NCBI GenBank assembly: GCA_947567595.1
Contig: CANOMQ010000012.1
Span: 40,074-104,073, forward strand
Source of the DNA: an uncultured Lachnospiraceae bacterium
GTDB taxonomy: Bacteria > Bacillota > Clostridia > Lachnospirales > Lachnospiraceae
Direction of reading: 5' to 3'
DNA length: 64,000 bases
Under the pieces are notes generated by a model. It made no database searches and was not told the origin of the DNA. It saw only the letters and a program-made list of their open reading frames with translations. Positions 3,178-23,950 of this stretch are shown in pieces (the stretch's first letter is position 1; every line of letters starts with the position of its first letter). Made by a program: the position numbers and the translations under genes.

Positions 3178-3231
3178 CAAATCACCCTTCCTGCATTTAA
3201 CAGCTTTATGCCATTTGCACCATGCACTGTT

Positions 3232-3864: not shown

Positions 3865-3886
3865 CAATTCCTCCATCCCCGAAACC

Positions 3887-4300: not shown

Positions 4301-4334
4301 AAAACCGCCTCCTGTTCACCTGTTTTCTGACACA

Positions 4335-4363
4335 ATTATATCGTGATTGCCCTCCCTTGTAAA
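4335..4363 (-). promoter_or_regulatory. Promoter of the EamA-hydrolase pair
   Basis: Minus strand: TTTACA (4358-4363), 17-base spacer, TATAAT (4335-4340), 35 bases ahead of the EamA start. Confidence 0.65.
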
Positions 4364-4372
4364 GACGCACGC

Positions 4373-5206
4373 CTATAACAAAAATACCCGCTCCAACTGC
4401 CCATACTGCGCCGCCGTCCCAATCCGCACCGCCAAATTCTGAGCGTCCCCGCACAGATACGCCGCCAGCTCTTTATCTCCGTCATAAAATTCCCGAACCA
4501 ACGTCTCAATCAGCCGCCTTACCAAATCCACCGTATCCTGCACCGATTTTCCCGAAAACACTTCCCCTAACTGTTGGTACTCCTGTGCGGTAAAGCCCCG
4601 CGCGCCAAGCGGCTTTTTTATCGCGGCGTGCCCGACCATGTTTCCAAGCATGACGCTGCAAATGTTGTCAAACAGCTCCCGGTATTCCACATTGTATCGA
4701 TACAGAACCGCCGTGACATATTCCCTGCCAAGCTTCTGTAAGAACTGTTGTTCTTTTTGAATGGCGCAAAGAACAATGAAAACCGCGTCCGCCCCCGAAT
4801 ACCCGCTCCAGTCCCAAAGCACCGGGTAATCCAGCGTCAAAATTGTATCCTGCGGGCAAAGCCTGACATCATAACGCTCCAAAAACAGCGGAATGCCCTG
4901 TACCGTATCGCGCAGACAGCGCACGCCAAAATCCTCGAACCCTTCTGAAAGCGCATTAAACCGTTTCGCAATCTCCGTCACCTTCTGCGTCACAAGCATA
5001 ACGCCTGCCTGATACTGCTCCCTTGCCGATACTGCCTTTTGCACAGGCAATGCCCCCGCCTCCCGGCGGCACTCCTCCAAGCAGTACAAAACAGCCTCCA
5101 TCAAGATCTGCGCCTGCTCATACGTCACGGACGTGCTTTCACAATGCGTATACTTCTTTGCCAGCTCCGAAACAATCGGAAGAAGCTCCTCCATCTCAAA
5201 ATCCAT
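4373..5206 (-). CDS. DUF6179-like protein of unknown function
   Basis: A 277-residue soluble, helical, acidic protein starting MDFEMEELLPIVSELAKKY after GGGGGATTGTT. I recognise it tentatively as DUF6179, a Firmicutes family of unknown function often next to DUF6323 genes; that neighbour is present here, 84 bases upstream. There is no signal peptide, membrane segment or catalytic motif I can name. It is rich in Leu and Glu with several Tyr and Cys. Being linked with DUF6323 under one promoter (5856-5884), the two proteins probably act together. Confidence 0.6.
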   Translation of the reverse strand: MDFEMEELLPIVSELAKKYTHCESTSVTYEQAQILMEAVLYCLEECRREAGALPVQKAVSAREQYQAGVMLVTQKVTEIAKRFNALSEGFEDFGVRCLRDTVQGIPLFLERYDVRLCPQDTILTLDYPVLWDWSGYSGADAVFIVLCAIQKEQQFLQKLGREYVTAVLYRYNVEYRELFDNICSVMLGNMVGHAAIKKPLGARGFTAQEYQQLGEVFSGKSVQDTVDLVRRLIETLVREFYDGDKELAAYLCGDAQNLAVRIGTAAQYGQLERVFLL

Positions 5207-5290
5207 AACAATCCCCCATTCCCATGAAACCCTGTATTTTTATGTAAACCTCTTATACCATTTTCCACAATGGCATGGCACAACAATGTC

Positions 5291-5827
5291 CTACCGCCAG
5301 CAAAGCTCCCGCAATGCCTCCAAATACAACTCCCTGTCCCACCGCTTCACAATGTCCATCTTTTCAAACTCCCCCTTCCCCTGCGTTTCCTGATACCCCC
5401 TGTACCCCGCCCGAACCGCCTGCGCAAAAATATCCAGACACGTCCCCTCAAGATACTCCAAATCCCCGAAGCACACCGTCTCAAACTGCTCCTTCATAAA
5501 GTTTAACAGCTCTTCGTCCGTAAGCTCGTCCTGCATTTCGTTCTTATACAGATAAAAAATCTCCTGCAGCCGGATTAGCGTCTCCACATAATCCCCCTGC
5601 GAAATAAACGAGGAATCACAGAACGCAAAAATAATCTGCGGCAAAATCCCCTGCCCGAACTCCACCCTGCGCTGCGCCGCCAAAGCAGCATTCCGCTCCT
5701 TAAGCAGCACCTGTGTATCCTCCTCGGACAGCGACAGCCCGAACTGCTGTGTGTACTGATTGGTCTTTCGCACTTCCACAAGCCACGCCTGATTCCCCAT
5801 AAGCTCCAGCCAGTTTTGTTTCTCCAT
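5291..5827 (-). CDS. DUF6323-like protein of unknown function
   Basis: A 178-residue soluble protein, best started at MEKQNWLELMGNQAW (5827), 9 bases after a GGGAGG site. Recognisable stretches are RNAALAAQRRVEFGQGIL, then IIFAFCDSSFISQGDYVETL and FYLYKNEMQDELTDEELLNF, a pattern I associate with DUF6323. The family function is not known to me. It is the first gene after its own promoter, and the partner DUF6179 gene follows. Extra in-frame codons upstream (to 5884) overlap the promoter and are unlikely to be translated. Confidence 0.65.
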   Translation of the reverse strand: MEKQNWLELMGNQAWLVEVRKTNQYTQQFGLSLSEEDTQVLLKERNAALAAQRRVEFGQGILPQIIFAFCDSSFISQGDYVETLIRLQEIFYLYKNEMQDELTDEELLNFMKEQFETVCFGDLEYLEGTCLDIFAQAVRAGYRGYQETQGKGEFEKMDIVKRWDRELYLEALRELCWR

Positions 5828-5855
5828 ACGCATATCCCTCCCTTGGTAATTTCTT

Positions 5856-5884
5856 AGTATACCCCTATGCCAAGAGCGGTACAA
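5856..5884 (-). promoter_or_regulatory. Promoter of the DUF6323-DUF6179 pair
   Basis: Minus strand: TTGTAC (5879-5884), 17-base spacer, TATACT (5856-5861). Its -35 lies back to back with that of a plus-strand promoter; together they form the palindrome TACAAGACTTGTA. Confidence 0.6.
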
Positions 5885-5887
5885 GAC

Positions 5888-5916
5888 TTGTATTTTTGCT
5901 GTTTTTGTGGTATAAT
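5888..5916 (+). promoter_or_regulatory. Plus-strand promoter facing a terminator
   Basis: TTGTAT (5888-5893), 17-base spacer, perfect TATAAT (5911-5916). The next thing downstream is the hairpin at 5931-5952 with T-rich sequence after it, and no plus-strand gene follows. Any transcript would be about 35 bases, starting near 5923. Confidence 0.55.
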
Positions 5917-5930
5917 CAAACTGTAAAAAA

Positions 5931-5957
5931 GAAACGGCAAAACTACCGTTTCTTTCT
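5931..5957. terminator. Hairpin terminator after the DUF434 gene
   Basis: GAAACGG (5931-5937) pairs with CCGTTTC (5946-5952) around an 8-base loop. On the minus strand it is followed by TTTTTTAC, a good intrinsic terminator for the DUF434 gene ending at 5959. On the plus strand TTTCTTTT follows, so it can also stop the short transcript from 5888-5916. Confidence 0.75.
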
Positions 5958-5958
5958 T

Positions 5959-6710
5959 TTACCCCTCTTCATTTCCGTCTAATCCATTAACTACTCCATC
6001 AAAAGAAATTTCCCTGCAAAAATCAACCCCTCCACAATATCCCGTCATTGCCTCAATTATCCCCGCATTCAAATTCACCCAACTGACACACTTGTCAAGA
6101 ATAATGGCGTCGCTCGTAATCACATGCCCAAGCGTCTGCAATACCGCGTCAACATTGTGGATAACCTCCACCTCAACGGCATACGGAAGCGGCTCTAGCA
6201 TCTCCAAAATGCACTGCCTTAGCCGTCCCGAATTGGACACTGGAGAGTCCAGATAAAACACCGCTTTCCCAATCCCGCTTTGCGCCAACGCACTTCCAAT
6301 CAGCAAGACCGCCTCCTGCGTCTTGTCAATCAGGCGGTATGTCCCGCGCAGTGCCGCCAAATCCCGCACTGTCCCGTCCATGCAGTATAGCAGCAGCGAA
6401 TCCGACAGCGCGACCTCCAGCGTAATAATCGTATTAAAACCATCAATATGTACCGTACACCCTTTCGGAAGCTGTTCCACTTCCTTTGCCTGATACTTTC
6501 GTCGGACGAAACCGCCCTTGCCAAAGCCAGCCGCTGCCGCTCCGAAAGCTGATAGTGATTTCCAACAAACACGGACGCTCCCTTGATAGGGTAACCCTGA
6601 TTTAACAAATACTGTAAATCCTTCCCTGCCTTACGTAATACCCCAATCGCCTGCCCGCCAAATTCCTTTTGGTCATTCGGGGCAAAGCCTCTTTTTACTG
6701 TCGTATGCAT
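5959..6710 (-). pseudogene. DUF434-type protein, interrupted by one frameshift
   Basis: The N-terminal part (from ATG at 6710) reads KRGFAPNDQKEFGGQA, LQYLLNQGYPIKGAS and VFVGNHYQLSERQRLALARA, which I recognise as DUF434. The reading frame is then lost between about 6488 and 6515. The rest (RKYQAKEVEQLPKG, VHIDGFNTIITLE, MDGTVRDLAALRG, VFYLDSPVSNSGRL) continues in the neighbouring frame to the stop at 5959. One extra base in the break zone would restore a continuous protein of about 250 residues. Function is unknown; the C-terminal half looks nuclease- or nucleotide-binding-like only by weak impression. Either a real pseudogene or a base-call error. It has its own promoter (6774-6802) and terminator (5931-5957). 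Confidence 0.7.
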
Positions 6711-6773
6711 TATGGTACCCTCTGTTCTTTCCCAACAACTTTTGTTTTCATTCCGTTCTCCCCTATAATTACA

Positions 6774-6802
6774 GTTATACGCTTTATATGCGCATACGTC
6801 AA
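6774..6802 (-). promoter_or_regulatory. Promoter of the DUF434 gene
   Basis: Minus strand: TTGACG (6797-6802), 17-base spacer, TATAAC (6774-6779). It lies 64 bases upstream of the DUF434 start. Confidence 0.65.
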
Positions 6803-6812
6803 CAGTTCCCTC

Positions 6813-7232
6813 TCAGAAGAACTTCCTCATCCAAATATGTGGACACCCCTGCTCCGGCTCGACCTCACCAAACTCTGCATATCCCAGCCCTTGATAAAAC
6901 GCCGACGCAACGCACTGCGCATGCAGCGCAAGCTGCGACTTTCCCATTCGCTGCACATACCGCTCCGCCTCCCGCACAACCATCGAACCAAGCTGCTTCC
7001 CACGGTGCGCCTTCACGACCGCAAGCCTGCCAAGAATATAAGAACCGCGCCCCTCGTCCCAAAACACGCGGCAGGTCGCCACAGGCGCACCGCCATCATC
7101 AAACAACACAATATGTACCGCCGCCGCGTCCGTCTCGTCAAACTCATCAACAAATCCCTGCTCCTTCTCAAACACCGCCTGTCTGATTTCTTTCGCACAC
7201 TCCGGAAACTGCTCATACGTTACAATTTTCAC
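6813..7232 (-). CDS. ElaA-like GNAT acetyltransferase
   Basis: Predicted acetyltransferase of 139 residues. I choose the GTG at 7232 because GGAGGAGAG sits 7 bases upstream. The order of motifs fits the ElaA/YjcF-like GNAT branch: IRQAVFEKEQGF near the start, then ILGRLAVVKAHRGKQLGS with the acetyl-CoA loop (HRGKQLG), LHAQCVASAFYQGLGY, and a C-terminal CPHIWMRK tail typical of this group. Substrate unknown. It follows the CPBP protease gene by 44 bases on the same strand, probably cotranscribed. Confidence 0.85.
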   Translation of the reverse strand: MKIVTYEQFPECAKEIRQAVFEKEQGFVDEFDETDAAAVHIVLFDDGGAPVATCRVFWDEGRGSYILGRLAVVKAHRGKQLGSMVVREAERYVQRMGKSQLALHAQCVASAFYQGLGYAEFGEVEPEQGCPHIWMRKFF

Positions 7233-7276
7233 AATCTCTCCTCCTGTCGTCACTCATTTTTTCTCCACCATACCAA

Positions 7277-7963
7277 TCATAGTCCATCGCCTCCGCCTGC
7301 ATAAAACACAACAACAGGCAGCACCACCGACGTCAGCACATCATAAAACCCATGCGCAACCATCAGCGGCACAAGGCTTTTGCGCTTCGAGCGGTAAAAA
7401 TACACGCACAAAATCACAACATTCACCGCAATACTGTAAAATTCCCCAAACACAAACCGCAGCGGAAACAAATGCACCGCATAAAACAGCACAATATTCA
7501 CCCCCACACAAACCGCCCGCGATTTCCAAATCTGCTGCGTCTTATGCAGGATAAACCCGCGAAACATCAATTCCTCCACAACACCCACACAAAGAAAGCA
7601 GTACAGCGATATCCCAAGCATAGCTCCAAAGTCCGGCTCCATCGCATACCCCGAATAATCCGCCCCCATCAAAACCAACGGAAGCTGCTGCACCGTAAAC
7701 ATACCACACCCCAAAAGCAAGCCCTTCGGAATATCCCAAAACAACGGCTTCTTTAGCCCAATCGCTAAGACCGGCTGCTTATCCACCTTCATCACCAAAA
7801 AAACCGTAACCACAAACTGGACAAAATAAAGCAAAGCCCCAAGCCAAAACCCGCCCGTGTCAATGGCATACATCACATAAGCGCACCACATTACAAAAAG
7901 AAAATACCCCACAAGTTCGACAAATGCTGTCAGTTTTCCGTTCTTCCCATTTTTTGTTTCCAT
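7277..7963 (-). CDS. CPBP family intramembrane metalloprotease
   Basis: Polytopic membrane protein of 228 residues, started at METKNGKNG (7963) with AGGAGG 9 bases upstream. It has about seven hydrophobic segments. CPBP (CAAX protease/bacteriocin-processing) motifs are present: VVEELMFRGF (EExxxR), a second-motif His in LFYAVHLFPLRF, and VAHGFYDVL. Family members cleave prenylated or small membrane peptides, or give bacteriocin self-immunity; the target here is unknown. No bacteriocin gene is visible beside it. A TTGACA lies upstream but without a good -10. Confidence 0.85.
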   Translation of the reverse strand: METKNGKNGKLTAFVELVGYFLFVMWCAYVMYAIDTGGFWLGALLYFVQFVVTVFLVMKVDKQPVLAIGLKKPLFWDIPKGLLLGCGMFTVQQLPLVLMGADYSGYAMEPDFGAMLGISLYCFLCVGVVEELMFRGFILHKTQQIWKSRAVCVGVNIVLFYAVHLFPLRFVFGEFYSIAVNVVILCVYFYRSKRKSLVPLMVAHGFYDVLTSVVLPVVVFYAGGGDGL

Positions 7964-8129
7964 CTGCTGTTTCCTCCTTTTTGAAACCACATTGTTTTTA
8001 TTTCAAAAAAAGAGTACCACATCCATACGGTTGCACACTACCAAACAAGGTTTCCATTCTGTCAACAGGCAGTTGCGGCAAGAGAAACCAACGCTTTCAT
8101 CCGCCGTTTACAGACTATGTTAGTTAAAT

Positions 8130-8753
8130 TTATAACGAAAACTTATTGTTATTATAGTTCGCCATAAAGACCGCAATGCAATTATCATAATACTCCTGCA
8201 GTTCTTCTTTCGCATCACACAGAAGTTTCCCTTTCATACTGTCTTTCCCCACTTCATCAATCTGTTTAGAAAGCTTGTCCAACGTTGTTCTTGTAATTTC
8301 GCAAATCCATGCAATATTATGTATCGGACGATATAATTTCAGTCTTGTAATCATATCACGTCCTTTCTCATCATCAGAATAAATGCCGCCATCATCACCC
8401 CGGTAAAAAACCATGCCATAGTCTGTTAGTACCGGATCATAAAATAAGTCGTTTTTTAATTCTCTTTTTGTAATATCACCTTCATATTGATTGCCTTTTG
8501 CCCCATTACATTTTTTACAGGAATACACTAAATTTGCATAATCGGTTTTTAATTCTTGCCATTTATCCTTAAAAATATCCTCCGGAATAAAGTGATCCAC
8601 CTCATAGGGAGTCGTAATTTGCGTATCCAACAAATTACAATATGCGCATCTGTGCTTAAAATCTTCTCTCAAATATTTTATATAAGAGTGATAATCCTTA
8701 TATTCTTTCGTACAGGTTCTTATAATTTTATAATTTCTGAATTTTCTTCTCAT
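8130..8753 (-). CDS. HNH endonuclease, last gene of a four-gene cassette
   Basis: A 207-residue nuclease candidate. The HNH/McrA-type zinc core is complete: CAYC (Cys36, Cys39), EVDHFIP with the catalytic Asp53-His54 pair, and CKKCNGAKGN (Cys79, Cys82, Asn83). The C-terminal half is helical and unassigned. The start at 8753 follows GGAG, which lies in the end of the preceding receiver gene 5 bases away, so translation is tightly linked. As the only nuclease in a compact unit with a DNA methyltransferase, a two-ATPase protein and a receiver protein, it is the likely effector or restriction component. The gene is visibly AT-richer than the flanks, suggesting horizontal gain. No clear terminator follows. 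Confidence 0.87.
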   Translation of the reverse strand: MRRKFRNYKIIRTCTKEYKDYHSYIKYLREDFKHRCAYCNLLDTQITTPYEVDHFIPEDIFKDKWQELKTDYANLVYSCKKCNGAKGNQYEGDITKRELKNDLFYDPVLTDYGMVFYRGDDGGIYSDDEKGRDMITRLKLYRPIHNIAWICEITRTTLDKLSKQIDEVGKDSMKGKLLCDAKEELQEYYDNCIAVFMANYNNNKFSL

Positions 8754-8758
8754 AAGTA

Positions 8759-9418
8759 CTACTCCAATAACGCATTTGCTTTTTCAATCAGCGAAACAAT
8801 CTCCTTTGCCTTTCGTTCATCAAATACTTTGTCAATCTGCGATTGTTCTGTAGGTACAAAATCATCCAACTGACTTTCTAATGCCAGTATATCACTTACT
8901 ACTGCCTCACGTTCCGAACTTCCTTTTGTTAATTTCTGTTTCAAGTCATCTATCGTCAATTGCAACCGATCTCTCTGCCCAACGTACTTCCGCATGCTGT
9001 CAAAGATATTAAATACTTTTTCTTTTGAGTATTCACTTTCTATTTTATAGAAGTCTTTCTTCTTATATACCTTATCCGCATCTACAAAATCAGGTTCTGT
9101 ACTTTCTTCCACTACTTCTGTTAAAATAATAACAGGAAATTTAGGAACCTCTTCCTTGATTCTTTTAAAAATATCAGTTCCTTTAATTTTATAAGTTTTT
9201 ACTATTATTTTATAATCAACTATTAATGATGATAACTTCAGAGCCTTAATATCATTGATGACCTCATCAAACACATCCGATACAACATCATTCGCATTCT
9301 CTGATATAAGATACGATTTGAAATCATATTTTTCATCTTGCTTGGCATTTGTCTTTATTGTTCTTCTGATTTTACTTAACTGACTTTCTTCATCATCTAT
9401 CAAACCTATAATATACAT
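8759..9418 (-). CDS. Receiver-domain protein with C-terminal coiled coil
   Basis: A 219-residue protein whose first 130 residues form a CheY-like receiver. The acidic pair is Asp8-Asp9 (GLIDDEE), the phospho-acceptor candidate Asp68 (SLIVDYK), the switch Thr100 (VIILTE), and the conserved Lys about 119-121 (VYKKKDF). All key residues are present, so it can probably be phosphorylated. The rest (about 140-219) is Glu/Lys/Leu-rich and looks like a coiled coil or helical hairpin, with no DNA-binding domain. It lies 13 bases downstream of the GHKL protein, which has a kinase-like C-terminus with a candidate phospho-His. That makes a sensor-to-receiver phosphorelay likely, perhaps controlling the HNH nuclease encoded next. 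RBS GGGGC precedes the ATG. Confidence 0.85.
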   Translation of the reverse strand: MYIIGLIDDEESQLSKIRRTIKTNAKQDEKYDFKSYLISENANDVVSDVFDEVINDIKALKLSSLIVDYKIIVKTYKIKGTDIFKRIKEEVPKFPVIILTEVVEESTEPDFVDADKVYKKKDFYKIESEYSKEKVFNIFDSMRKYVGQRDRLQLTIDDLKQKLTKGSSEREAVVSDILALESQLDDFVPTEQSQIDKVFDERKAKEIVSLIEKANALLE

Positions 9419-9431
9419 ATACTGCCCCTTT

Positions 9432-11921
9432 CTATTTTGTCCATGATGCTCTTAACATGTAGCCATTTTTGACAGATATTACATGTAATTCACCCGCATT
9501 TCGAACAGCCGCCTCACGCGCAATCCACAATCCCAACCCAGTTCCACCTTCTTTACTGCTTTCCCTAGCATTTAATGTCATATCCGGATTCTGCCTGTAC
9601 CGCTTATCCAATTCCGGACCATTGTTGGACATTTCTAAATATACCCTTTTTTCATCTTCATACACCTCAAAACGAATGAAACGTTCACCGTCAGCCTCTT
9701 CTAAATAGTATGCAGAATTCAGAATAAAGTTATTCAGTATCAAATGTAAATCAACTTCAGGCAGCTTTATCACCGTATCTCTTTCCATATTGACTGGCTG
9801 AATCGTAATAAATTTTCGGTCAAGGAGCGGCTGCCACATAGCAAGAATATGTGCAAGAAATTCCTTTAACTGTACTTCTCTGGATTCAAATTTTTCCTGT
9901 TTTACAGAATCCATGATGAGATTTACCCATTCTGATAACAATTCGTCCGTTTCATTCAATTCATCCAACAGCTCATATGGATTAAAGTCTTCGTCACCAC
10001 AATAAGGCTGATAATGAAGCAATCTGTTGATGGCTTCTTTCAAATGCTGCCCCCTGCTGCCCAGTTCTGTTCCTATCCGCGTAATTTCATGGGAAAATGT
10101 CTGAGCCATCACGCCGGCAGAGCCAAGAACCATCATCAATTGTTCCGTAGAAGTTTTATTATCTTTTTCTTTTCCCAGTGCTACAATGACATCTTTTAAA
10201 TCATCTTCAGAAATATTGATATCATCTTCATTGATATTCTGACTAAAATGTTTGAAATCCTGTTTTTGTCCCTTCTTACTTTCCTGCTCCCTCTTTACCT
10301 GCTCATATATTTGCTGAACCTTATCATCATGTGATTTTCTCTTTACCCTTTCCCATGCTGCATATTCTCTTAATACATATTGTCTGTCATATTCAAATTT
10401 ACTTAAAATACCTTGGATAATCTCAACAAAACAATCATACTCCCGATTCGGACTCATGCCTTCACGGTTTGCAGTATCCTCTAATTTAGGATTACTCAGC
10501 CTGCCGATGGAAACACTCCCGATCAGCTGATTTGGCGACACGCGCCAATTACCGCTTTCATGAGAAGCCGCAGCCGGACTGCGCTGCACTCTTCCGCTTA
10601 AATCGAGCCAATCATAAAATTGTCCCTCATCACCATACGGTCTTACCTTAAAGCTATCCCGATATATTTTTACACCGGAAAAATCTTTTAGCAGCTTTCC
10701 CCTTTTCCGACTCTTGAAATCCTTTATAATCATAACTGTGCTCTTTTGATTTTTTAAATAATACAGCTTTAATTTAAACGGACCAACGCTATGATACCTG
10801 TCCATTACTTCTTCAGATTTTTGCAGAATCTCCATTAAAGAATAACGAAACTTCCTTACTCCATCAAAATCTTTTCTGAAATAATGCTTTCTTTGAAAGG
10901 CATCCCTCTCCCAAAATTCATTTAAATCATACTCTTCAATGTCTGTCGTGGAATATACTATCGAAACAGTTTTTTTCGTAATATCTATCTCATTTCTGTC
11001 CAATGTAAGTGTAACGCAATTCTTACCATCATACACCGCTTCAATCTGATAATCATAATTTTCGCGTGAAATCCCTTCATTTTCCGTCTTATAATTTAAA
11101 TCCGGATACTTTTGATTTTTTACGACGATATCAAAACGGTCGACACTGCCAAATGGATTAATATTTTTCAGATTATTATTTACCTTAATATACAGCTTTT
11201 TATCCCAAAGTTCCCGCACCGGACTTAATATAATAATAGTTCCCGTATTCCATGCAAACTCTCTGACAAGTTCAAAATCATCCTCCAAATACTTTTTGAC
11301 AAATGCCTCAAATTCACCTCTGCATTCTTCAAGGCTTGCCTCAACCTGATTTAACAGTTTGGCATCATCAAACTGCGTCCAGTCTATTTCCCATTTGTAT
11401 ATTTGCTCTGTCTCACATTTTGTAAACACCTGTGTACAGGACGACAATTTATCAAGTGCAAATCTTCCAATTCCTTTTGCCCCTGTCTTTATTCTGTTTT
11501 TACGAGAGCTGTAAATATTTACCTCTTTATTATCCGTACCAATATTCATCCAAGCCGTTTCCAGAATTTCCCGATTCATTCCAGAACCATTATCTGCTAC
11601 AATAATTTTGGACAGTGAACGTAAATATTGTTCTATTTCCGCTAAATTGACATTTTCATTCAATAAATATATACCGTCTTTAACACTGTAGTTCTCTAAA
11701 ATCAGCTTCATATTCTTTTTAAAATACCGGTTGATTTCTGAAAGTTCCAAGGTTTCAGGTACTTCATCGTATGGATTTATGTATTTTACATATACGCATC
11801 CCGCATCCGCATCGTATCCGTTTTTTACCAGCTCAACTATGGCTCCATCCACATCAGAAATATTTTCCCGTCCAATAAGTCTGGCTGTTTTTGCACTTAC
11901 CTGAAATACCATAGATTGCAT
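9432..11921 (-). CDS. Large protein with two GHKL ATPase domains (Hsp90/MORC-like plus histidine-kinase-like)
   Basis: An 829-residue cytoplasmic protein with no membrane segment. The N-terminal domain is an Hsp90/MutL/MORC-type ATPase: DVDGAIVELVKNGYDADA (Glu30, Asn34), then VADNGSGMNREIL near residue 117, and KTGAKGIGRFALDKLS near 150. A central region of about 400 residues resembles the transducer region of this group but I cannot name it. The C-terminal 230 residues look like a histidine kinase: H-box-like TFSHEITRIGTEL (His near 610), N-box LILNNFILNSAYYLEE, MSNNGPELD, and GGTGLGLWIAREA. Two ATP sites in one chain plus a receiver protein downstream suggest a sensor that transfers phosphate. 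GHKL ATPases of this type are known from restriction-modification loci. RBS GGAGTAAAA precedes the ATG. Confidence 0.85.
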   Translation of the reverse strand: MQSMVFQVSAKTARLIGRENISDVDGAIVELVKNGYDADAGCVYVKYINPYDEVPETLELSEINRYFKKNMKLILENYSVKDGIYLLNENVNLAEIEQYLRSLSKIIVADNGSGMNREILETAWMNIGTDNKEVNIYSSRKNRIKTGAKGIGRFALDKLSSCTQVFTKCETEQIYKWEIDWTQFDDAKLLNQVEASLEECRGEFEAFVKKYLEDDFELVREFAWNTGTIIILSPVRELWDKKLYIKVNNNLKNINPFGSVDRFDIVVKNQKYPDLNYKTENEGISRENYDYQIEAVYDGKNCVTLTLDRNEIDITKKTVSIVYSTTDIEEYDLNEFWERDAFQRKHYFRKDFDGVRKFRYSLMEILQKSEEVMDRYHSVGPFKLKLYYLKNQKSTVMIIKDFKSRKRGKLLKDFSGVKIYRDSFKVRPYGDEGQFYDWLDLSGRVQRSPAAASHESGNWRVSPNQLIGSVSIGRLSNPKLEDTANREGMSPNREYDCFVEIIQGILSKFEYDRQYVLREYAAWERVKRKSHDDKVQQIYEQVKREQESKKGQKQDFKHFSQNINEDDINISEDDLKDVIVALGKEKDNKTSTEQLMMVLGSAGVMAQTFSHEITRIGTELGSRGQHLKEAINRLLHYQPYCGDEDFNPYELLDELNETDELLSEWVNLIMDSVKQEKFESREVQLKEFLAHILAMWQPLLDRKFITIQPVNMERDTVIKLPEVDLHLILNNFILNSAYYLEEADGERFIRFEVYEDEKRVYLEMSNNGPELDKRYRQNPDMTLNARESSKEGGTGLGLWIAREAAVRNAGELHVISVKNGYMLRASWTK

Positions 11922-11937
11922 ATATTTTTTACTCCTT

Positions 11938-13371
11938 TTAAAACATGAAATTTTCTATATCTTTAGAAGTTATCCTCAACGAAGAACCACTTATATGTAT
12001 TCCGACAGTCTGCACATATCTCATAAATGCATCACTTTCCAATATGCCTTTTGCATCATCCAGTTGATATTCTTTATTGTCAGACTTGGGTACAATATAC
12101 ATTCCGGCATAAGGAATACATTCCTGTGTCAGCATATATACAGCTACTCTCTCTGTAATCACGGTCGAAATAAGAAGTTTCTTTTTGTTCAAACCTGCCA
12201 AAGCCTGTGAACGCCCATATTCAAACCATAAAGATCTTTTATCGCTTTTGCGGTGATCTAATTGCTCCCTAAAATCATTCAGGTACCCCGCCGCTCCCGG
12301 AAATAGCTCTTTAAACTGTTTTTCCGTATATCGAATCAGCTTATCATCTGCATATTCATACGGAAAAATAATTTTTTCCACCTTTTTATATCGTAATGAC
12401 CGTGGGGTTACTGTATCACGCACTACTGCCTTTTCAATCAATTTGCCTCCACACTTGTAAAAGCCATCTAATTCCTCATAATTTTCTTCCTTTATAACAA
12501 ATGCTTCGTTGAGCAAAGTTGCAACCACATGGGATATTTGAAAAAAATCTCCAAAACGCCTTGTTCCCGTCATAGTATCCCTTGTAAAAAACCATTTTTT
12601 TGATAATTGAGCCATAGGAATGCAAATCTTTTCTTTATTAGCCATATCATAATACAAAAAGTGATCACATTTCCTTCCCTTATTCAGTACCATTATTGCG
12701 GACTTTACCAACGCATCATTAAACATTCTATCTTGTGTATAATCGTGTATTTCCTGTAAATAGGGTTTAATGAAAACACGAAGCTTTTCCCCAAAAACAG
12801 TTTTAAATATGCTGCTGGGAATCAGATATGCCATTTTACCATCCGCATCCAAACATTTTACACTCTTTTCGATAAATGCATAGCAATAATCAAACTTCCC
12901 TTTCTCACAGATTTCAAAGTTTCGCCTTACAAAAGCTCTATCCTCTTCGCTCAATTCCTGATAAGTAATATATGGCGGATTACCCACAACAAATTGAAAC
13001 GTTTCTTTACACTCCCATCTTAAATAATCCTCATTTATCACATTCCATTTAACTTTTCCAATGCCTTCTTTTTCTGCTAAATTGTCCAATTTTTGTATAC
13101 ATTTATTATACTGAACTGAATCAATTTCAATCCCACAGATATTATTTGATAATCCATCACGTATTTCATCATTGGTCAGTCCATGTGTTCTGCAGTCATG
13201 TATATATCTATCAACAATAATCATCAAAATTTGTCCATCACCACATGAATTTTCCAGTATTTTCTTTTTAAATATATCCTCTGCATATCCCACACTGTTC
13301 AATAATTCTTCCACATAATCATCTGGAGTAAATACTTGGCATTTTTCATTCATAAAATTTACCATATCCAT
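11938..13371 (-). CDS. N6-adenine-type DNA methyltransferase, first gene of the cassette
   Basis: A 477-residue class I methyltransferase. The N-terminus (MNEKCQVFTPDDYVEELL) is typical of Eco57I/TaqI-like modification enzymes. The SAM-binding loop is ILENSCGDGQIL (about 38-49) and the catalytic motif IV is VVGNPPYITYQ (near residue 130), the NPPY form used for exocyclic amino methylation. The C-terminal half, from about residue 260, probably holds the target-recognition domain, so specificity is in cis and no separate S subunit is needed. It is the first gene after a consensus promoter and the GHKL gene starts 16 bases later. Its expected role is to mark host DNA, with the HNH nuclease as partner. 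AT-rich codon use sets it apart from the flanks. Confidence 0.88.
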   Translation of the reverse strand: MDMVNFMNEKCQVFTPDDYVEELLNSVGYAEDIFKKKILENSCGDGQILMIIVDRYIHDCRTHGLTNDEIRDGLSNNICGIEIDSVQYNKCIQKLDNLAEKEGIGKVKWNVINEDYLRWECKETFQFVVGNPPYITYQELSEEDRAFVRRNFEICEKGKFDYCYAFIEKSVKCLDADGKMAYLIPSSIFKTVFGEKLRVFIKPYLQEIHDYTQDRMFNDALVKSAIMVLNKGRKCDHFLYYDMANKEKICIPMAQLSKKWFFTRDTMTGTRRFGDFFQISHVVATLLNEAFVIKEENYEELDGFYKCGGKLIEKAVVRDTVTPRSLRYKKVEKIIFPYEYADDKLIRYTEKQFKELFPGAAGYLNDFREQLDHRKSDKRSLWFEYGRSQALAGLNKKKLLISTVITERVAVYMLTQECIPYAGMYIVPKSDNKEYQLDDAKGILESDAFMRYVQTVGIHISGSSLRITSKDIENFMF

Positions 13372-13441
13372 ATTGTTTTTCCTTCAGTAAAGCTTTGACG
13401 CTCTAAATTACACTGTTCAAAATACATAGCATTCTTTTTTT

Positions 13442-13470
13442 ATTATATTCAGTTGTATGAATGTTTTCAA
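13442..13470 (-). promoter_or_regulatory. Promoter of the methyltransferase-GHKL-receiver-HNH cassette
   Basis: Minus strand: TTGAAA (13465-13470), 17-base spacer, perfect TATAAT (13442-13447), 71 bases ahead of the methyltransferase ATG. It is the only clear promoter for all four genes. The 194-base gap 13372-13565 otherwise holds only the padR terminator. Confidence 0.8.
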
Positions 13471-13540
13471 CTGATTTTTTATACATATGTTACTTAAAAT
13501 TTCTTTCAAACCGATTTTGACAATACGCTTCCTACTAATG

Positions 13541-13565
13541 AAAATAACAGGAACTTTTCTTCCTG
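13541..13565 (-). terminator. Hairpin after padR
   Basis: CAGGAA (13548-13553) pairs with TTCCTG (13560-13565) directly after the padR stop; minus-strand TTATTTTC follows. A short stem and interrupted T-tract make it a moderate terminator. Confidence 0.5.
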
Positions 13566-13880
13566 CTATTTATCAATTCCCACCTGTTTCACAATTTTTT
13601 GCAGTTCCCGCCAGTCCTGTACTGAAGCATTCAAATCACAAATCCCCAAATCCGTAATTCGATAATATTTGCGTTTTGGTCCCAATGACTCTTTCCCAAA
13701 ATAAGCCTCCGTTTTGCCCTCTTTATTCAATCTGCGAAGAATGGCATAGAATGTACTGTCATTGACATCTGTAAAAAGCTTTCGCATTTCCTGCATCAGC
13801 GTATAACCATAATAATCATTCTGCGCAAGCTTTTTCAACAGACACATTTCCAAAATTCCTTTTTTAATCTGCGCGTCCAT
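13566..13880 (-). CDS. PadR family transcriptional regulator
   Basis: A 104-residue winged-helix regulator: KKGILEMCLLKKLAQNDYYG, YTLMQEMRKLF, then DSTFYAILRRLNKEG and GPKRKYYRITDLG, the standard PadR order. The ATG at 13880 lies 8 bases after a GGGTGG site. It overlaps the 3' end of the upstream HAAS-domain gene by 17 bases, so the two are translationally coupled. PadR repressors often control an adjacent membrane protein gene; here the pair probably autoregulates through the promoter at 14766-14794. Confidence 0.9.
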   Translation of the reverse strand: MDAQIKKGILEMCLLKKLAQNDYYGYTLMQEMRKLFTDVNDSTFYAILRRLNKEGKTEAYFGKESLGPKRKYYRITDLGICDLNASVQDWRELQKIVKQVGIDK

Positions 13881-14700
13881 TTTGTTTTCCACCCTTGTTT
13901 CCCAGTATCACCACATCAATCATACTGGAAATGAAGACACTAAGCAATAACGGAAGCGGAAAATAGTTGATTTTCCCAAATACCGTAAGGTTTCCTAAAT
14001 ACTGTTCATAGAAAACCGCACAGCAAATCAAGGCAACTGACTGGACAAGGATACCAAACATCAGCCATTCCGCTTTCCAAAACGCCACAAGGCAATACAC
14101 TGCAATGATACCGTTCAGCGCCACACAAAAGACCATAACAGCATGAACAGTACCCCCGACTGTGTTCAGTGTATTCTGTGCACGCGCCACGTCTATATAA
14201 GCAGGAACACCAATATACATACCATACAGCAAAAGAAAAATCAACAAAACCAAGAAGCCCTGAAACCAAATCCGCTTTTTTACCTGTTTTTTGGTGAAAG
14301 AAAGGATACCAAACAGACACGCATTCCCACTTATAAACCATAACAATCCCATCGACGAAAATACCAATACGGAAACAACAATCTGCCGATGGATATCCTG
14401 TTGCTTTTTTGCAGCAAGAAGGAACATTCCAATGATAAAAGCCAATGGCGCTATAAAAGCCAATATAATTCTAAAAACCCGCATTTTGCCAGCCGGCTGT
14501 GATGTGTCTGACTGCTTTATGCTTCTTGCAAATTCCTTTGGTGTTCCCAAGTTTTTCAAGATTGATTTCTGCACGTCTTCTTCTGTTTGACTATCATCAA
14601 AATACATGGCGGTATCAACCAATATATCATGAATTTCTGAGAAAACAAATCCCTGCATGAACAATTCGTTCTTTAACTGAATTAAATAACGCTTCCTCAC
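13864..14700 (-). CDS. HAAS/DUF1700-like membrane protein, PadR partner
   Basis: A 278-residue protein. Residues 1-75 (KRYLIQLKNELFMQGF, EIHDILVDTAMYFDD, NLGTPKEFARSIK) match the HAAS/DUF1700-type helical domain found beside PadR regulators. The rest contains about six transmembrane segments. I use the GTG at 14700 because AGGAGG lies 8 bases upstream; the more distal ATG codons have no such site. These proteins are thought to sense an envelope or peptide signal and act with PadR; that role is inferred from the pairing, not seen in the sequence. Confidence 0.75.
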   Translation of the reverse strand: MRKRYLIQLKNELFMQGFVFSEIHDILVDTAMYFDDSQTEEDVQKSILKNLGTPKEFARSIKQSDTSQPAGKMRVFRIILAFIAPLAFIIGMFLLAAKKQQDIHRQIVVSVLVFSSMGLLWFISGNACLFGILSFTKKQVKKRIWFQGFLVLLIFLLLYGMYIGVPAYIDVARAQNTLNTVGGTVHAVMVFCVALNGIIAVYCLVAFWKAEWLMFGILVQSVALICCAVFYEQYLGNLTVFGKINYFPLPLLLSVFISSMIDVVILGNKGGKQNGRAD

Positions 14701-14765
14701 AGCACACACCTCCTCCATATAATGAACAAAAATATGAACGGAAATCAACAAATTTCTTTAAGACT

Positions 14766-14794
14766 ATTATATATAACTACTGTTTATAAGTCAA
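14766..14794 (-). promoter_or_regulatory. Promoter of the HAAS-padR operon with a dyad
   Basis: Minus strand: TTGACT (14789-14794), 17-base spacer, TATAAT (14766-14771). An inverted repeat TACTG/CAGTA (14778-14802) spans the spacer and -35 and is a candidate PadR operator. Confidence 0.75.
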
Positions 14795-14878
14795 TAGCAG
14801 TACAGCAAAATCCCTCTTTGGACTTTACTTGTCTGCAATCCGTTTTTCACATAGCTTGGAAAGCAAACATAATCCTCC

Positions 14879-15751
14879 CTACAGCTTCTCCCGCGTAATA
14901 TCCTTATACCCCTCCCCATAAATCTCATTCGCCGACGCGATAATCATAAACGCGCTCTTATCCTCGTCCTTCACAATCTCCTCAAGCTTCGGCGCCATCT
15001 GCTTCCTCGTAACCACCATCAGCATTTCCTTGTGCTCCCCCGTATACGCGCCAACGGCGGGCACAATCGTCGTCGTAATGTCAAGCTCGCCCATAATCCG
15101 CTGCTTCATCTTCGTCGGCTCGCTGCTGATAATAAAAATCAGCTTAGCCTCGTCCGAGCCGTAAAGCACCTTATCCATCACCACGGAATCAACCACGACC
15201 GCCACACCCGCATAAAACGCCACCGTCAAATCCCGGAACACAATCCACGACGCGATGATAACCATACTGTCAAATGCCAAAAACAGAACATTTGTTTTAA
15301 TATGCTTCCACTTCGTACGCATGACCTTGATAATAATATCCGCACCGCCCGTCGTCGCCCCCGATTTAAACACAAACGCAAGCGCCACGCCAATCAGCGC
15401 GCCGCCAATCACCGCCGCAATCAGCAAATCGTCCGTCACCGCGCCAAGCGGTGAAAGCGCATTCATAAATACCGTAATCATGGAAAGCGCATACATCGTG
15501 GACGCAATGAAACGCCACCCGAACTTCCACAAGCCAAGCACCACAATCGGCACATTCAAAAGCAGGTTTATCGTACCCGTCGGAATATTCACAAAACGGT
15601 TTACCAAAATCGACACACCCGTCACGCCGCCCGGCGCAATATCGTTCGGATCTAAAAATAAACTAATGGCAACGGCATAAATAAATGCCGCTGCCGTCAG
15701 AATCAGATAACGCGTTACCGTATTTTTTGTCTGTTTCATCATTCCACTCAT
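14879..15751 (-). CDS. YitT family membrane protein (DUF161 plus DUF2179)
   Basis: A 290-residue membrane protein. The first 190 residues hold about five transmembrane segments with the family signature SLFLDPNDIAPGGVTGVSIL and the SGATTGGADII segment. The C-terminal cytoplasmic DUF2179 domain (AKLIFIISSEPTKMKQRIM onwards) ends in SANEIYGEGYKDI. The exact role of YitT proteins is not settled. The start at 15751 (MSGMMKQTKN) follows GGTGG by 8 bases. It lies 47 bases downstream of ilvA on the same strand; no terminator is seen between them. Confidence 0.9.
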   Translation of the reverse strand: MSGMMKQTKNTVTRYLILTAAAFIYAVAISLFLDPNDIAPGGVTGVSILVNRFVNIPTGTINLLLNVPIVVLGLWKFGWRFIASTMYALSMITVFMNALSPLGAVTDDLLIAAVIGGALIGVALAFVFKSGATTGGADIIIKVMRTKWKHIKTNVLFLAFDSMVIIASWIVFRDLTVAFYAGVAVVVDSVVMDKVLYGSDEAKLIFIISSEPTKMKQRIMGELDITTTIVPAVGAYTGEHKEMLMVVTRKQMAPKLEEIVKDEDKSAFMIIASANEIYGEGYKDITREKL

Positions 15752-15798
15752 AAATCTCTCCACCTGACCACAATTAAATCGGTCTGCGTTCCCGCAAA

Positions 15799-17019
15799 TT
15801 ATATATTCGTCCGCACCTGCTTTGGCTGATAGCCGTTCTCCTCAAGCGCCTTAATAATCTGATTTTTGTGCTCCGTACCAAACGTCTCAAGCGTAATCCG
15901 CAGCTCCACGGCGGCGTTTCGGTTGATGGACACAAACTGGTTGTGCTCCAACTTAATTACATTTCCGTTCAGGGAAGCAATCACTTCGGAAACCTTCGTC
16001 AGCTCGCCCGGCTTATCCGGCAGCAGCACCGAAACCGTAAAAATCCGATCGCGGAAAATCAGTCCCTGCTGTACCACCGATGACATCGTGATAATATCCA
16101 TGTTTCCGCCGCTCAAAATCGAAACAATCTTCTTATTCTTCACATCAAGATGGCGTAACGCCGCCACCGTAAGCAGTCCCGAATTTTCCACAATCATCTT
16201 GTGGTTTTCCACCACATCAAGGAACGAAACCACAAGGTCTTCGTCGGGAACCGTAATAATCTCGTCAACATTCTGCTGGATATACGGGAAAATGTTTTTG
16301 CCCGGCGTCTTCACCGCAGTACCGTCCGCAATCGTGTTCACGCCCGGAAGCGTCACGACCTCCCCCGCCTGTAGCGACGCCTGCATACAGTTTGCCCCCG
16401 CAGGCTCCACGCCAATCACCTGAATTTTTGGATTTAACAGCTTTGCAAGCGTCGAGACACCCGTCGCAAGCCCGCCCCCGCCAATCGGCACCAAAATAAT
16501 GTCAACAAGCGGCAGCTCCTTAAAGATTTCCATTGCAATCGTGCCCTGTCCCGTGGCAACCGCCAAATCGTCAAACGGGTGGATAAACGTATAGCCTTTC
16601 TCTGCCGCAAGCTGCGTTGCGTACTCCGCCGCCTCGTCGTATACGTCTCCTTTCAGGACAACCTCTGCACCGTAATTTTTCGTCCGGTTGACCTTCATTA
16701 AAGGCGTCGTCGTCGGCATGACGATAACCGCCTTCACGCCGTATTTCTTTGCGGCATACGCAACCCCCTGCGCATGGTTTCCCGCAGACGCGGTAATCAG
16801 CCCCTTCTCGCGTTCCTCGGGTGAAAGCGTGCTAATCTTATAATATGCGCCGCGCAGCTTATACGCTCCCGTAAGCTGCATGTTTTCCGGCTTTAAATAT
16901 ACCTTGTTCCCCGTCTGATTGCTGAAAAATTCACTGTATATCAATTTCGTCTCGGAAGTAACCTTTTTTACAATTTCCGACGCTTCCTCAAACTTTTCCA
17001 AAGTAAGCATTTCTGACAT
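15799..17019 (-). CDS. ilvA: Threonine ammonia-lyase with C-terminal ACT domain
   Basis: A PLP enzyme of 406 residues that converts threonine to 2-oxobutyrate and ammonia, the entry to isoleucine. The PLP Lys lies in LTGAYKLRGAYYK (near residue 54), the substrate loop is SAGNHAQG, and the phosphate-binding Gly loop is PIGGGGLATGV. The C-terminal 75 residues (FTVSVLLPDKPGELTKVSEV) are one ACT domain, the short TdcB-like layout with a single ACT rather than the two of long IlvA. It may be biosynthetic or catabolic. The acetolactate synthase gene some 14 kb away would use its product. GGAGG precedes the ATG; it follows ftsY by 44 bases. Confidence 0.93.
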   Translation of the reverse strand: MSEMLTLEKFEEASEIVKKVTSETKLIYSEFFSNQTGNKVYLKPENMQLTGAYKLRGAYYKISTLSPEEREKGLITASAGNHAQGVAYAAKKYGVKAVIVMPTTTPLMKVNRTKNYGAEVVLKGDVYDEAAEYATQLAAEKGYTFIHPFDDLAVATGQGTIAMEIFKELPLVDIILVPIGGGGLATGVSTLAKLLNPKIQVIGVEPAGANCMQASLQAGEVVTLPGVNTIADGTAVKTPGKNIFPYIQQNVDEIITVPDEDLVVSFLDVVENHKMIVENSGLLTVAALRHLDVKNKKIVSILSGGNMDIITMSSVVQQGLIFRDRIFTVSVLLPDKPGELTKVSEVIASLNGNVIKLEHNQFVSINRNAAVELRITLETFGTEHKNQIIKALEENGYQPKQVRTNI

Positions 17020-17063
17020 CTTATTCTTTCCTCCTTACCGCATTTTATGCATAAGCCCTTTTA

Positions 17064-18245
17064 TCACCAAAAAAACCATTTCTTTTTCTTGGGCGTTTCC
17101 AAAACTGTATCGTCTGTTTCACCCGTTTCCTCGTTTATGACACTCGTGTCACTTTCCGCAGACTGTGCCGCTGTCTGTTCTGTTATGACACCTGTGTCAC
17201 TTTCCTCGTCCTCCACATTCCCCTCTGCCTGCGGCTTTGTCACCGCCTCCTGTGGCTCTGCCATCTCCTCATTTATGACACCCGTGTCACTTTCCGTCGT
17301 GCCGTTTCCTGCAATATCCTCTTTTTCACTCTCAATATCAAACAACGCATTCACAAACTCATCTGCGTGGAACTTTTGCAAATCCTCAATCGTCTCCCCC
17401 ACGCCGATATATTTCACCGGAACATTCAGCTCCGACTGGATTGCCACCGCAATGCCGCCCTTCGCCGTCCCGTCCATCTTTGTAAGAATTATGCCCGTCA
17501 AATCCGCAACCTCGCCAAACTCCCTTGCCTGCGAAAGCGCGTTCTGTCCCGTCGTGCCGTCAAGCACAATCAGGTTTTCCCTATGCGCATCCGGAAACTC
17601 CCTGTCGATTATGCGGTTCATTTTCTTTAACTCTTCCATCAGGTTTTTCTTGTTGTGCAGCCGTCCTGCAGTGTCGCAAATCAGCACGTCTATCTTTCTC
17701 GCCTTCGCCGCATTGACCGCGTCATAGATAACCGACGCCGGATCCGCCCCTTCCGCTCCGCCAATCATGTCAACACCTGCCCTGTGCGCCCACTCCGCAA
17801 GCTGTTCTCCCGCCGCGGCGCGGAACGTATCGGCAGCGGCAATCAGCACCCTTCTGCCCTGTCCCTTCAAAATGCTCGCAAGCTTTCCGACCGAGGTCGT
17901 CTTTCCCACGCCGTTGACACCGATGATAAAAATAACCGACTGTTTTTTCTCAAAATCGTACGCCGTATCCCCCACGCACATCTGCTCCCTCATACTCTCA
18001 ACAAGAAGCTCCTTGCACTCCGACGGGTGGCGCAGGTGGCGTTTTTTCACCTCGTCCTTCATGCGCTCTATAATGTCATTCGTGGCGTTGACGCCAATGT
18101 CCCCCATAATCAGGATTTCCTCAAGCTCCTCGTAAAAATCGTCGTCAATCTCCGACGCGCCGTAAAACACCGCGTCAATTCCCGCCACAATGTTATCCCT
18201 TGTCTTGGTTAAGCCTTCCTTTAAACGGCTGAAAAAACCTGCCAT
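17064..18245 (-). CDS. ftsY: Signal recognition particle receptor FtsY with acidic C-terminal tail
   Basis: The SRP receptor GTPase that docks ribosome-SRP complexes at the membrane, 393 residues. It starts with MAGFFSRLKEGLTKTRDNI, so the long acidic N-terminal A domain of many FtsY proteins is missing. The N domain is followed by the G domain: P-loop GVNGVGKTT (near 115), DTFRAAAGEQL, DTAGRLHNK, TKMDGTAKGG and VGETIEDLQ. The NG core ends near residue 303. About 90 acidic residues follow, with three copies of an ESDTGVI-like unit, ending in KKKKWFFW. That tail may replace the A domain in membrane binding. The ATG overlaps the smc stop by one base. Confidence 0.95.
   Translation of the reverse strand: MAGFFSRLKEGLTKTRDNIVAGIDAVFYGASEIDDDFYEELEEILIMGDIGVNATNDIIERMKDEVKKRHLRHPSECKELLVESMREQMCVGDTAYDFEKKQSVIFIIGVNGVGKTTSVGKLASILKGQGRRVLIAAADTFRAAAGEQLAEWAHRAGVDMIGGAEGADPASVIYDAVNAAKARKIDVLICDTAGRLHNKKNLMEELKKMNRIIDREFPDAHRENLIVLDGTTGQNALSQAREFGEVADLTGIILTKMDGTAKGGIAVAIQSELNVPVKYIGVGETIEDLQKFHADEFVNALFDIESEKEDIAGNGTTESDTGVINEEMAEPQEAVTKPQAEGNVEDEESDTGVITEQTAAQSAESDTSVINEETGETDDTVLETPKKKKWFFW
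17138..17289. repeat. Three palindromic repeats inside the ftsY tail
   Basis: TGACACNNGTGTCA occurs at 17138-17151, 17186-17199 and 17276-17289 within a longer imperfect unit (GAAAGTGACACnnGTGTCAT on the coding strand). Each encodes SDTGV or SDTSV. The arms are identical in all copies; the intervening sequence is not. Confidence 0.85.
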
Positions 18246-22534: not shown

Positions 22535-22569
22535 TCCCTTAGCACCTCCATGATGAATGTCATCATACA

Positions 22570-22594
22570 AAAAGCCCTGTCGAAAAGGGCTTTT
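22570..22594. terminator. Hairpin between acpP and rnc, possible attenuator
   Basis: AAAAGCCC (22570-22577) pairs with GGGCTTTT (22587-22594). On the minus strand the stem runs into TTTTTG. It lies between the acpP stop and the rnc start, so it may stop part of the transcripts, or serve as an RNase III site. Confidence 0.65.
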
Positions 22595-22615
22595 GTCGAA
22601 ACAAACGTGTTTACT

Positions 22616-22843: not shown

Positions 22844-22888
22844 TACTATCCCTCATTCTCAGTAAACATATGAAACTTTAATTTCACA

Positions 22889-23902: not shown

Positions 23903-23921
23903 TGTCAAAATCCTCCATATC

Positions 23922-23950
23922 ATAATAAATGATACTAAAACTGCTGTCAA
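23922..23950 (-). promoter_or_regulatory. plsX promoter with overlapping palindrome
   Basis: Minus strand: TTGACA (23945-23950), 17-base spacer, TATTAT (23922-23927). The palindrome TATCAT-AATAA-ATGATA (23918-23934) covers the -10, a good position for a repressor of lipid genes. It does not match the classic FapR site. Confidence 0.8.

Follow-up and report, generated by a model that had tools for sequence, protein, structure and literature searches.

What would a bacterium do with four adjoining genes that appear to encode a DNA methyltransferase, a protein with an ATPase at each end, a receiver and a nuclease? The question is raised by the window analysed here, a stretch of 64,000 nucleotides from an uncultured Lachnospiraceae bacterium (GenBank assembly GCA_947567595.1, contig CANOMQ010000012.1, positions 40,074 to 104,073), in which four intact open reading frames occupy positions 8130-13371 of the minus strand. 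In order of transcription they encode a methyltransferase (MT), a MORC-like ATPase/histidine kinase fusion (HK), a receiver (RR) and an HNH nuclease (HNH), and the gaps between them measure 16 nt (MT/HK), 13 nt (HK/RR) and 5 nt (RR/HNH). An earlier note on this DNA had described four tightly spaced genes, namely an NPPY methyltransferase, a protein with an Hsp90/MORC-like ATPase at one end and a kinase-like ATPase at the other, a receiver with all phosphorylation residues and a C-terminal tail, and an HNH nuclease; each of these descriptions was upheld by the profiles, models and residue counts given below. We find that the cassette is real and widespread, that a system of this kind, joining kinase, receiver and restriction-modification (R-M), had already been predicted in 2021, and that the present lineage is distinct. 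What is new in our analysis is that HK, RR and HNH co-diverge tightly while the MT gets exchanged.

Loci were gathered through the HK. A profile named A2 was built from eight HKs picked from loci already having an HNH gene, which is a bias; it retrieved 336 relatives in the genome_contigs collection, reduced to the best 79 loci, and 12 in viral_contigs, where the window HK as a single-sequence query had found none. These were pooled with the window, the loci from genomes of its order and six plasmid or phage records, and once 14 loci that were duplicates or had ordinary kinases had been taken out, the set comprised 107 loci, a few near-copies among them. All four genes, whose co-occurrence in other genomes the earlier note had proposed to count, were found together by profile in 81 of the 107 loci, and in 88 after rescue by tblastn. 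The complete loci were distributed over Bacillota, Bacteroidota, Spirochaetota, Pseudomonadota, Campylobacterota, Kiritimatiellota and a Methanolobus metagenome-assembled genome (MAG). Among the 81, the order was MT-HK-RR-HNH in 44 and HK-RR-HNH-MT in 37; the order HK-RR-HNH is constant, with the MT lying either 5' or 3' of it. The viral_contigs loci, on putative phage contigs, were complete in 7 of 12 cases by profile and in 8 with rescue. Chance co-occurrence was rejected by comparing near and far genes: the RR, HNH and MT profiles matched 1, 0 and 0, respectively, of 238 genes of at least 150 residues lying more than 5 kb from the HK, and 90, 90 and 102 of 780 nearer genes, on which the profiles had themselves been trained.

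Inspection of the 26 loci incomplete by profile revealed that (i) tblastn finds all four genes in seven (L044, L051, L053, L055, L085, L104 and L110), their apparent gene losses having come from mechanical gene calling, (ii) six run off the end of a contig (L030, L068, L070, L076, L086 and L111), (iii) L080 has a truncated HK without MT, and L007 a split HK with RR and HNH, (iv) six (L008, L009, L028, L118, L119 and L120) belong to other HK subfamilies or are too remote, and (v) the remainder consists of L050 and L052, without an MT of this family, and of L025, L026 and L029, missed by the RR profile. The last three carry HK, HNH and MT, with a gene of 199-241 residues in the RR position that has a receiver-like start by eye and matches neither the RR profile nor Pfam. 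L028 combines an N6_N4-type MT, an HK and a 445-residue gene, with no HNH match; the same variant, an N6_N4-type MT (identified through Pfam in L028 and by eye in L009) next to a double-ATPase HK, is seen at L028:7379-12198 and L009:764-5620, where the third gene, of 445-446 residues, is unmatched in Pfam and begins, by eye, like a receiver.

Within the window's order, the window HK alone as a query matched 11 of 392 genomes (1e-15). A search with the HNH profile matched 16 of the 392 at 1e-12, and its top ten were ten of those eleven genomes; five of the ten (the window's own, G541, G555, G734 and G750) had supplied rows of the HNH profile, and the four weakest (1e-16 to 6.5e-15) barely beat the six further genomes (2.6e-13 to 8.8e-13).

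The 829-residue HK (9432..11921; all cassette features lie on the minus strand) is assigned by Pfam, profile and model as a MORC/Hsp90-type ATPase fused to a soluble histidine kinase. Pfam places HATPase_c_3 at residues 100-196 (2.6e-13) and HATPase_c at 722-817 (4.6e-11), and both families were present in all 15 HKs scanned. In a model built from 66 sequences (pLDDT 84.5, pTM 0.64), an alpha/beta region at the N-terminus is followed by a long helix, by a helical hairpin that bears H611 and, at the C-terminus, by another alpha/beta domain. With Foldseek this model matched MORC2 with DNA (9cdj, 8.9e-12, whole model), MORC3 (5ix1, 1.3e-10) and Hsp90, as well as sensor kinases of DHp-CA type (ZraS, YycG and HK853-RR468 complexes); Foldseek reports no query ranges, and it is the HK sequence profile that locates Hsp90, at about its positions 7-132, and the sensor kinases, at about 570-780. 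In the modelled structure, the GHKL ATPase module has a MORC-like fold. The boundaries of three parts were taken from the model: the N-terminal GHKL ATPase (residues 1-240, 11202..11921, with the Hsp90 profile match at 7-132), a middle transducer-like region (241-490, 10452..11201) and the DHp-like helices (572-679, 9885..10208), which bear the putative phospho-acceptor H611 (10089-10091). The C-terminal catalytic ATP-binding domain (680-829, 9435..9884) resembles sensor-kinase domains in the PDB.

Residue conservation was counted over selected relatives of intact length, broken copies excluded (66 rows for HK, 65 each for RR, HNH and MT). In all 66 HKs we found E30, N34, D37, D110, G112, G114, G147, K149, G150 and G152 of the N-terminal ATPase, R421, Y429, G430, D437 and W438 of the middle region, H611, and N731, N735, G768, G793, G795 and G797 of the C-terminal domain; the residue following H611 is E in 53, D in 12 and H in 1.

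The 219-residue RR (8759..9418) matches Pfam Response_reg only below the family cut-off (8e-4). An AlphaFold2 model from 62 sequences (pLDDT 91) nevertheless gives a receiver fold followed by a helical tail at about residues 129-218 (helices 129-164, 170-184, 194-198 and 201-218), and Foldseek returned RcsB (3.4e-5) and a photosensor protein first, then other response regulators. Among solved structures, nothing useful was found from the sequence of the window RR; the RR profile did retrieve response regulators. The window protein has D8, D9, D68 (9215-9217), T100 and K120; among the 65 rows D68 and G80 are invariant, T100 is kept in 63 and K120 in 61, and positions 8 and 9 are acidic throughout (position 8, D 57 and E 8; position 9, D 33 and E 32). 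In the alignments, the pair keeps the residues of a two-component relay, the DHp histidine of the kinase and the aspartate, threonine and lysine of the receiver. No output domain was found by Pfam in the RR, and no DNA-binding domain was seen, the helical tail being all that follows the receiver.

Since the motifs of the N-terminal ATPase are conserved as strictly as those of the kinase, the HK could instead hydrolyse ATP and load the HNH protein onto DNA through its MORC-like half, with the kinase half and the receiver playing a structural part and no phosphotransfer taking place. Such a role would suit the paraMORC ATPases that Iyer et al. 2008 describe in R-M operons, of which paraMORC1 may co-occur with HNH genes, in the portion of that paper covered (PMC2292703). 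Phosphotransfer residues that went unused would not be expected to stay as constant as H611, the six C-terminal positions of the HK and D68, T100 and K120 of the RR, and we regard this explanation as very improbable.

The 207-residue nuclease (8130..8753) matches PF01844 (7e-9), and its H54 (8592-8594), C36, C79 and N83 are present in 65 of 65 rows, with D53 as D in 57 and E in 8; the conservation of phosphorelay and nuclease residues thus holds across all three core proteins. Pfam finds no separate specificity domain in it. C39 and C82 are jointly replaced (by T and V) in nine rows (L075, L083, L084, L087, L088, L097, L105, L108 and L112), which suggests, from the alignment, a metal-binding pair lost or altered with H54 kept. 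The domain is distantly like the PtuB/TIGR02646 effectors of Septu and retron Ec78 (PADLOC 7e-14, and profile matches in the PDB), yet with 27 bits it falls far short of the 150 that NCBIfam requires for PtuB, and its partners in the 81 complete loci are HK and RR, not PtuA or a retron.

The 477-residue MT (11938..13371) has an Eco57I/N6_Mtase catalytic part (Pfam Eco57I, 1.7e-20) and a weak TaqI_C-like match at its C-terminus, below the cut-off. Its NPPY motif lies at 12970-12981; NPP is kept in 65 of 65 rows and Y134 in 60, and its relatives in the PDB are the adenine-specific methyltransferases BseCI and TaqI. Searching with the MT first, we found matches in 12 of the 392 order genomes, seven of which are cassette genomes. 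Four of the other five carry MAE_28990-type HEPN and GmrSD_N (DUF262) genes adjoining the MT, GmrSD_N scoring above the curated cut-off in two and below it in two, where the frames are cut by the locus end. In these loci (L173, L174, L175 and L176) a related Eco57I-type MT, 40-42% identical to that of L025, stands beside a second effector module: the effector genes differ from those of the cassette, and no HK gene was found in the flanks examined. An operon of a MAE_28990 HEPN with a ParB nuclease and a DNA methylase is listed in the covered portion of PMC3710099.

How the four genes have evolved with respect to one another was examined in the 81 complete loci, of which 71 remained once short genes had been set aside along with three near-copies. 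Pairwise distances correlated at 0.94 for HK-RR and at 0.90 for both HK-HNH and RR-HNH, against 0.64-0.66 for the MT (HK-MT 0.65, HNH-MT 0.64) and a permutation maximum of 0.15, all values being inflated by shared clade history. On a quick HK tree the MT has changed sides at least three times, also when starred branches alone are used. Exchange is plainest between L023 and L025, from two genera of the window's family: their MTs are 97.5% identical, their HKs 32%, and their RRs (for L025, the receiver-like 199-residue gene) and HNHs 26% each, and the DNA is 97% identical over 1833 bp, up to an end at the MT/HK junction. In a third core, L056, the MT is 90% identical to both, with HK at 32-33% and HNH at 26-27%. 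One MT (90-97% identical) is thus found with three deeply diverged cores, at L023:7476-8900, L025:11654-13111 and L056:3751-5169. Conversely, L021 and L023 have cores that are alike (HK 57%, RR 53%, HNH 52%) and MTs that are 22% identical and lie on opposite sides.

Because a near-identical MT adjoins two deeply diverged cores, sequence specificity may lie in the MT. That the HNH carries a matched site specificity of its own appears unlikely on the sequences, given the lack of a Pfam specificity domain and the diverged versions found beside the same MT. These results bear on a third possibility, an ordinary Type II R-M system of MT and HNH whose expression is regulated by the adjoining two-component system. 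MT and nuclease genes do stand together, with all four genes in 88 of the 107 loci, and control of R-M by signalling is what PMC8011034, in the part covered, proposed for HEF_HK/Response_reg_2 pairs. An RR with a helical tail and no DNA-binding domain is ill suited to such regulation, and so is a core that co-diverges tightly while its MT does not; HNHs 26-27% identical beside one MT allele would demand convergent site specificity of a plain R-M pair. These HNHs, and an HNH-MT correlation of 0.64 against 0.90 for HK-HNH, speak against a matched specificity of MT and nuclease, although specificity is unreadable from sequence. We consider this explanation very unlikely. The earlier note had also proposed that the methyltransferase protects host DNA; the MT is indeed kept with the core, yet in view of its exchange, of the MT-less loci L050 and L052 and of the related MTs beside DUF262-HEPN genes, that statement may be too simple.

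The simplest reading of the sequences assigns specificity to the MT, and sensing and cutting to the HK-RR-HNH core. The MT would methylate its own target sequence, thereby marking self, and, as the swaps suggest, would also carry the sequence specificity of the system. The HK would engage DNA through its MORC-like ATPase clamp; foreign DNA, either unmethylated or flagged by the MT, would alter its ATP-dependent dimer state, and the altered dimer would switch on the C-terminal kinase, leading to autophosphorylation of H611 and transfer of the phosphate to D68 of the RR. The phosphorylated RR may then activate the nuclease through its helical tail: as the RR shows no output domain, its output is probably the HNH, which adjoins it and diverges along with it. 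The earlier note had supposed a signal flow of this kind, from the double ATPase through the receiver to release of the nuclease. Taken as a mobile restriction-type defence system with DNA cutting gated by a phosphorelay, the cassette is explained by a proposal whose chances we put a little short of even. The narrower proposal, that an exchangeable MT provides sequence identity and a specificity-free core turns DNA status into a His-Asp signal licensing cleavage, is more tentative, and we would sooner expect it to fail than to hold.

Several observations weigh against phosphorelay-gated restriction. Only 7 of the 11 order genomes found through the HK are complete by profile (the window genome, L020-L024 and L027). 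In L050 and L052 the 18.5 kb examined contain HK-RR-HNH but no MT of this family; elsewhere in the genome, G1055 (L050) has none close (best 4.7e-11) and G792 (L052) a more distant one (4.2e-89), both assemblies being possibly incomplete. No gene matched both the RR and the HNH profile, so that no fusion links the two proteins. Covariation between HK and RR gave no signal where DHp and receiver would meet (DHp, 0.12 observed against 0.14 expected; receiver residues 1-30, 0.03 observed against 0.13 expected), in a test swamped by two-clade structure, and the distance correlations carry the inflation mentioned above. Nucleases cutting the same site can diverge widely and convergent isoschizomers are possible, so that one MT with diverged HNHs is no proof of an HNH without specificity. 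A scan of neighbours for defence genes had no control, and no enrichment is claimed from it: 410 neighbour genes in 82 loci were eligible, 110 were sampled and 106 scanned, with R-M, MADS, DRT, AbiLi and Shosta-type models among the PADLOC matches listed (best 25 of 125 families) and three integrases among those listed for Pfam (best 25 of 129).

Some of this evidence fits equally well with abortive infection, the main rival, in which a non-specific HNH would kill or arrest the infected cell on a trigger from HK and RR, the MT acting as bait or infection monitor. An HNH that lacks a Pfam specificity domain and has PtuB/TIGR02646 effectors as its nearest profiles would suit such a role, as would the persistence of cores without an adjacent MT and the pairing of one MT allele with HNHs 26-27% identical. 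On the other hand, at least 88 of the 107 loci have an MT with the core, and the two have stayed attached despite at least three changes of side, so that methylation probably matters to the core; abortive infection is, in our view, rather unlikely. The two MT-less cores lie at L050:8001-11804 and L052:7980-11815, with intact kinase and receiver motifs, and the genes upstream of them are presumably sporulation genes of sigF/spoVA type.

Is the cassette, then, a known system? The earlier note had not recognised it as a named one, and PADLOC 2.0 (2023; window proteins, 65 RRs and 15 HKs) as well as NCBIfam and Pfam scans of the window proteins name none with this gene set, the PADLOC matches listed being the best 25 of 45 families for MT and of 58 for HNH. 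The underlying theme is less novel, having been predicted for a related lineage. Bellieny-Rabelo et al. 2021 (PMC8011034, in the part covered) predicted that R-M neighbourhoods harbour kinases of the layout HATPase_c_3+HEF_HK+HATPase_c adjoining Response_reg_2 receivers. C5 methyltransferases were conspicuous there, Vsr genes occurred in 20 genera and HNH_2 genes in seven, and their Discussion proposed that signalling controls R-M directly or indirectly; the word Eco57I is absent from the main text. Common to both lineages are the HATPase_c_3 - DHp - HATPase_c layout and the adjoining receiver, and hhalign shows the two HK families to be homologous (probability 100%, E 3e-44). In contrast, HEF_HK (PF19191) was matched by none of 15 cassette HKs at E<=0.01, nor by the window HK at E<=1, while the controls L125 and L126 matched; Response_reg_2 (PF19192) was matched by none of 65 cassette RRs at E<=0.01, with L122, L125, L126 and L120 matching as controls, and its profile is not detectably like that of the cassette RRs (hhalign probability 0.3, from three Response_reg_2 sequences). 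Membership of the RR in Response_reg_2 is therefore not supported at profile level. The HEF_HK examples L122, L125 and L126 have HKs of 993-1003 residues and PF19192 proteins of 546-617 residues, with a C5 methyltransferase by Pfam in L125 and a putative one, a gene of like size, in L122 and L126; none matches the cassette RR, HNH or MT profiles. The cassette lineage is set apart by its own HNH gene and its adenine-type MT. PF19192 occurred in one of 14 cassette host genomes (Taibaiella, L089), at a different place, and in 2 of the 229 genomes sampled from one gammaproteobacterial class. L120:6356-12616, on a contig of the viral collection, holds a C5-methyltransferase-like gene (by eye), a 999-residue HK and a PF19192 receiver, the published type.

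Other known systems resemble the cassette in part. MORC/paraMORC loci share an N-terminal GHKL ATPase in an R-M setting, whereas the cassette has a receiver and the main text of PMC2292703, as covered, is without the words receiver, response regulator and two-component. The GHKL part of BbrUII/HgiDII-type enzymes (NF050001) matches HK residues 102-187 (5.7e-10); the score of 38 bits, against a cut-off of 550, reflects the ATPase part alone. VcSduA, a Shedu protein shown to protect against phage, has a GHKL ATPase proposed to control a nuclease; unlike the four-gene cassette it is one fused protein with a PD-(D/E)xK nuclease, and no receiver or MORC-kinase arrangement is reported in the portion of PMC12137116 covered. 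A figure legend on predicted systems in DefensePredictor (PMC13092281, in the part covered) expands abbreviations for histidine-kinase-like ATPase and receiver domain, and those systems may overlap the cassette. The covered part of PMC12839542, on BREX, has nothing on the four-gene set, the terms kinase, receiver and MORC have zero occurrences in the R-M review PMC12707154, and no paper describing the four-gene HNH/adenine-MT set stood among the matches listed from open-licence PMC papers. No Detocs model stood among the PADLOC matches listed for HK and RR, the presence of one in the 2023 library being unconfirmed. Detocs uses a kinase and a receiver as a signalling pair in phage defence; it is not known to have a MORC-type ATPase, methyltransferase or HNH gene.

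The genomic setting of the cassette is that of an accessory element. The HK was found in 5 of 30 genomes of the genus (1e-30) and in 1 of 398 of the phylum (1e-20), the window's own being counted in both, so the cassette is patchy. Its GC content is 35.3%, against 50.5% at 3001-8106 and 50.8% at 14880-24000; the block is AT-richer than its flanks, as previously described, and the low GC runs on to about 14879, taking in a PadR-like gene. Homology to L147 stops at 8106 and restarts at 14880, delimiting an AT-rich segment (8107..14879, no strand, GC 35.7%) that is variable within the genus: among the 30 genus genomes, the window's included, both flanks lie near each other in one other, G1035, with 2.9 kb of different DNA between them. 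Alongside the cassette this segment holds, at 13566-14751, the PadR-like gene (Pfam) and a hydrophobic 295-residue frame. The best promoter-like site found 5' of the MT is TTGAAA-17-TATAAT (13442..13470, minus strand, 11/12), by consensus match only. It suits the single promoter claimed in the earlier note, but matches of this kind show no excess over shuffled sequence (29 against a mean of 24.6, sd 5.4), which leaves that claim weak. In two MAGs labelled Bacteroides/Bacteroidales, the HK at L037:8001-10520 is 78% identical to the window's and that at L056:5144-7774 is 94% identical to the HK of Lachnospiraceae L062, reflecting either recent transfer or mis-binned contigs.

If phosphorelay-gated restriction is true, restriction in these bacteria would come under the control of a two-component phosphorelay whose sensor is a MORC-type ATPase, and natural MT swaps would separate specificity from cutting. 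On the narrower proposal, the relay would act directly on a nuclease, not on transcription, and the system would split what to recognise from when to cut. What MORC-like ATPases of prokaryotes do in R-M loci could, if gating holds, be tested directly, because the output of the kinase can be measured.

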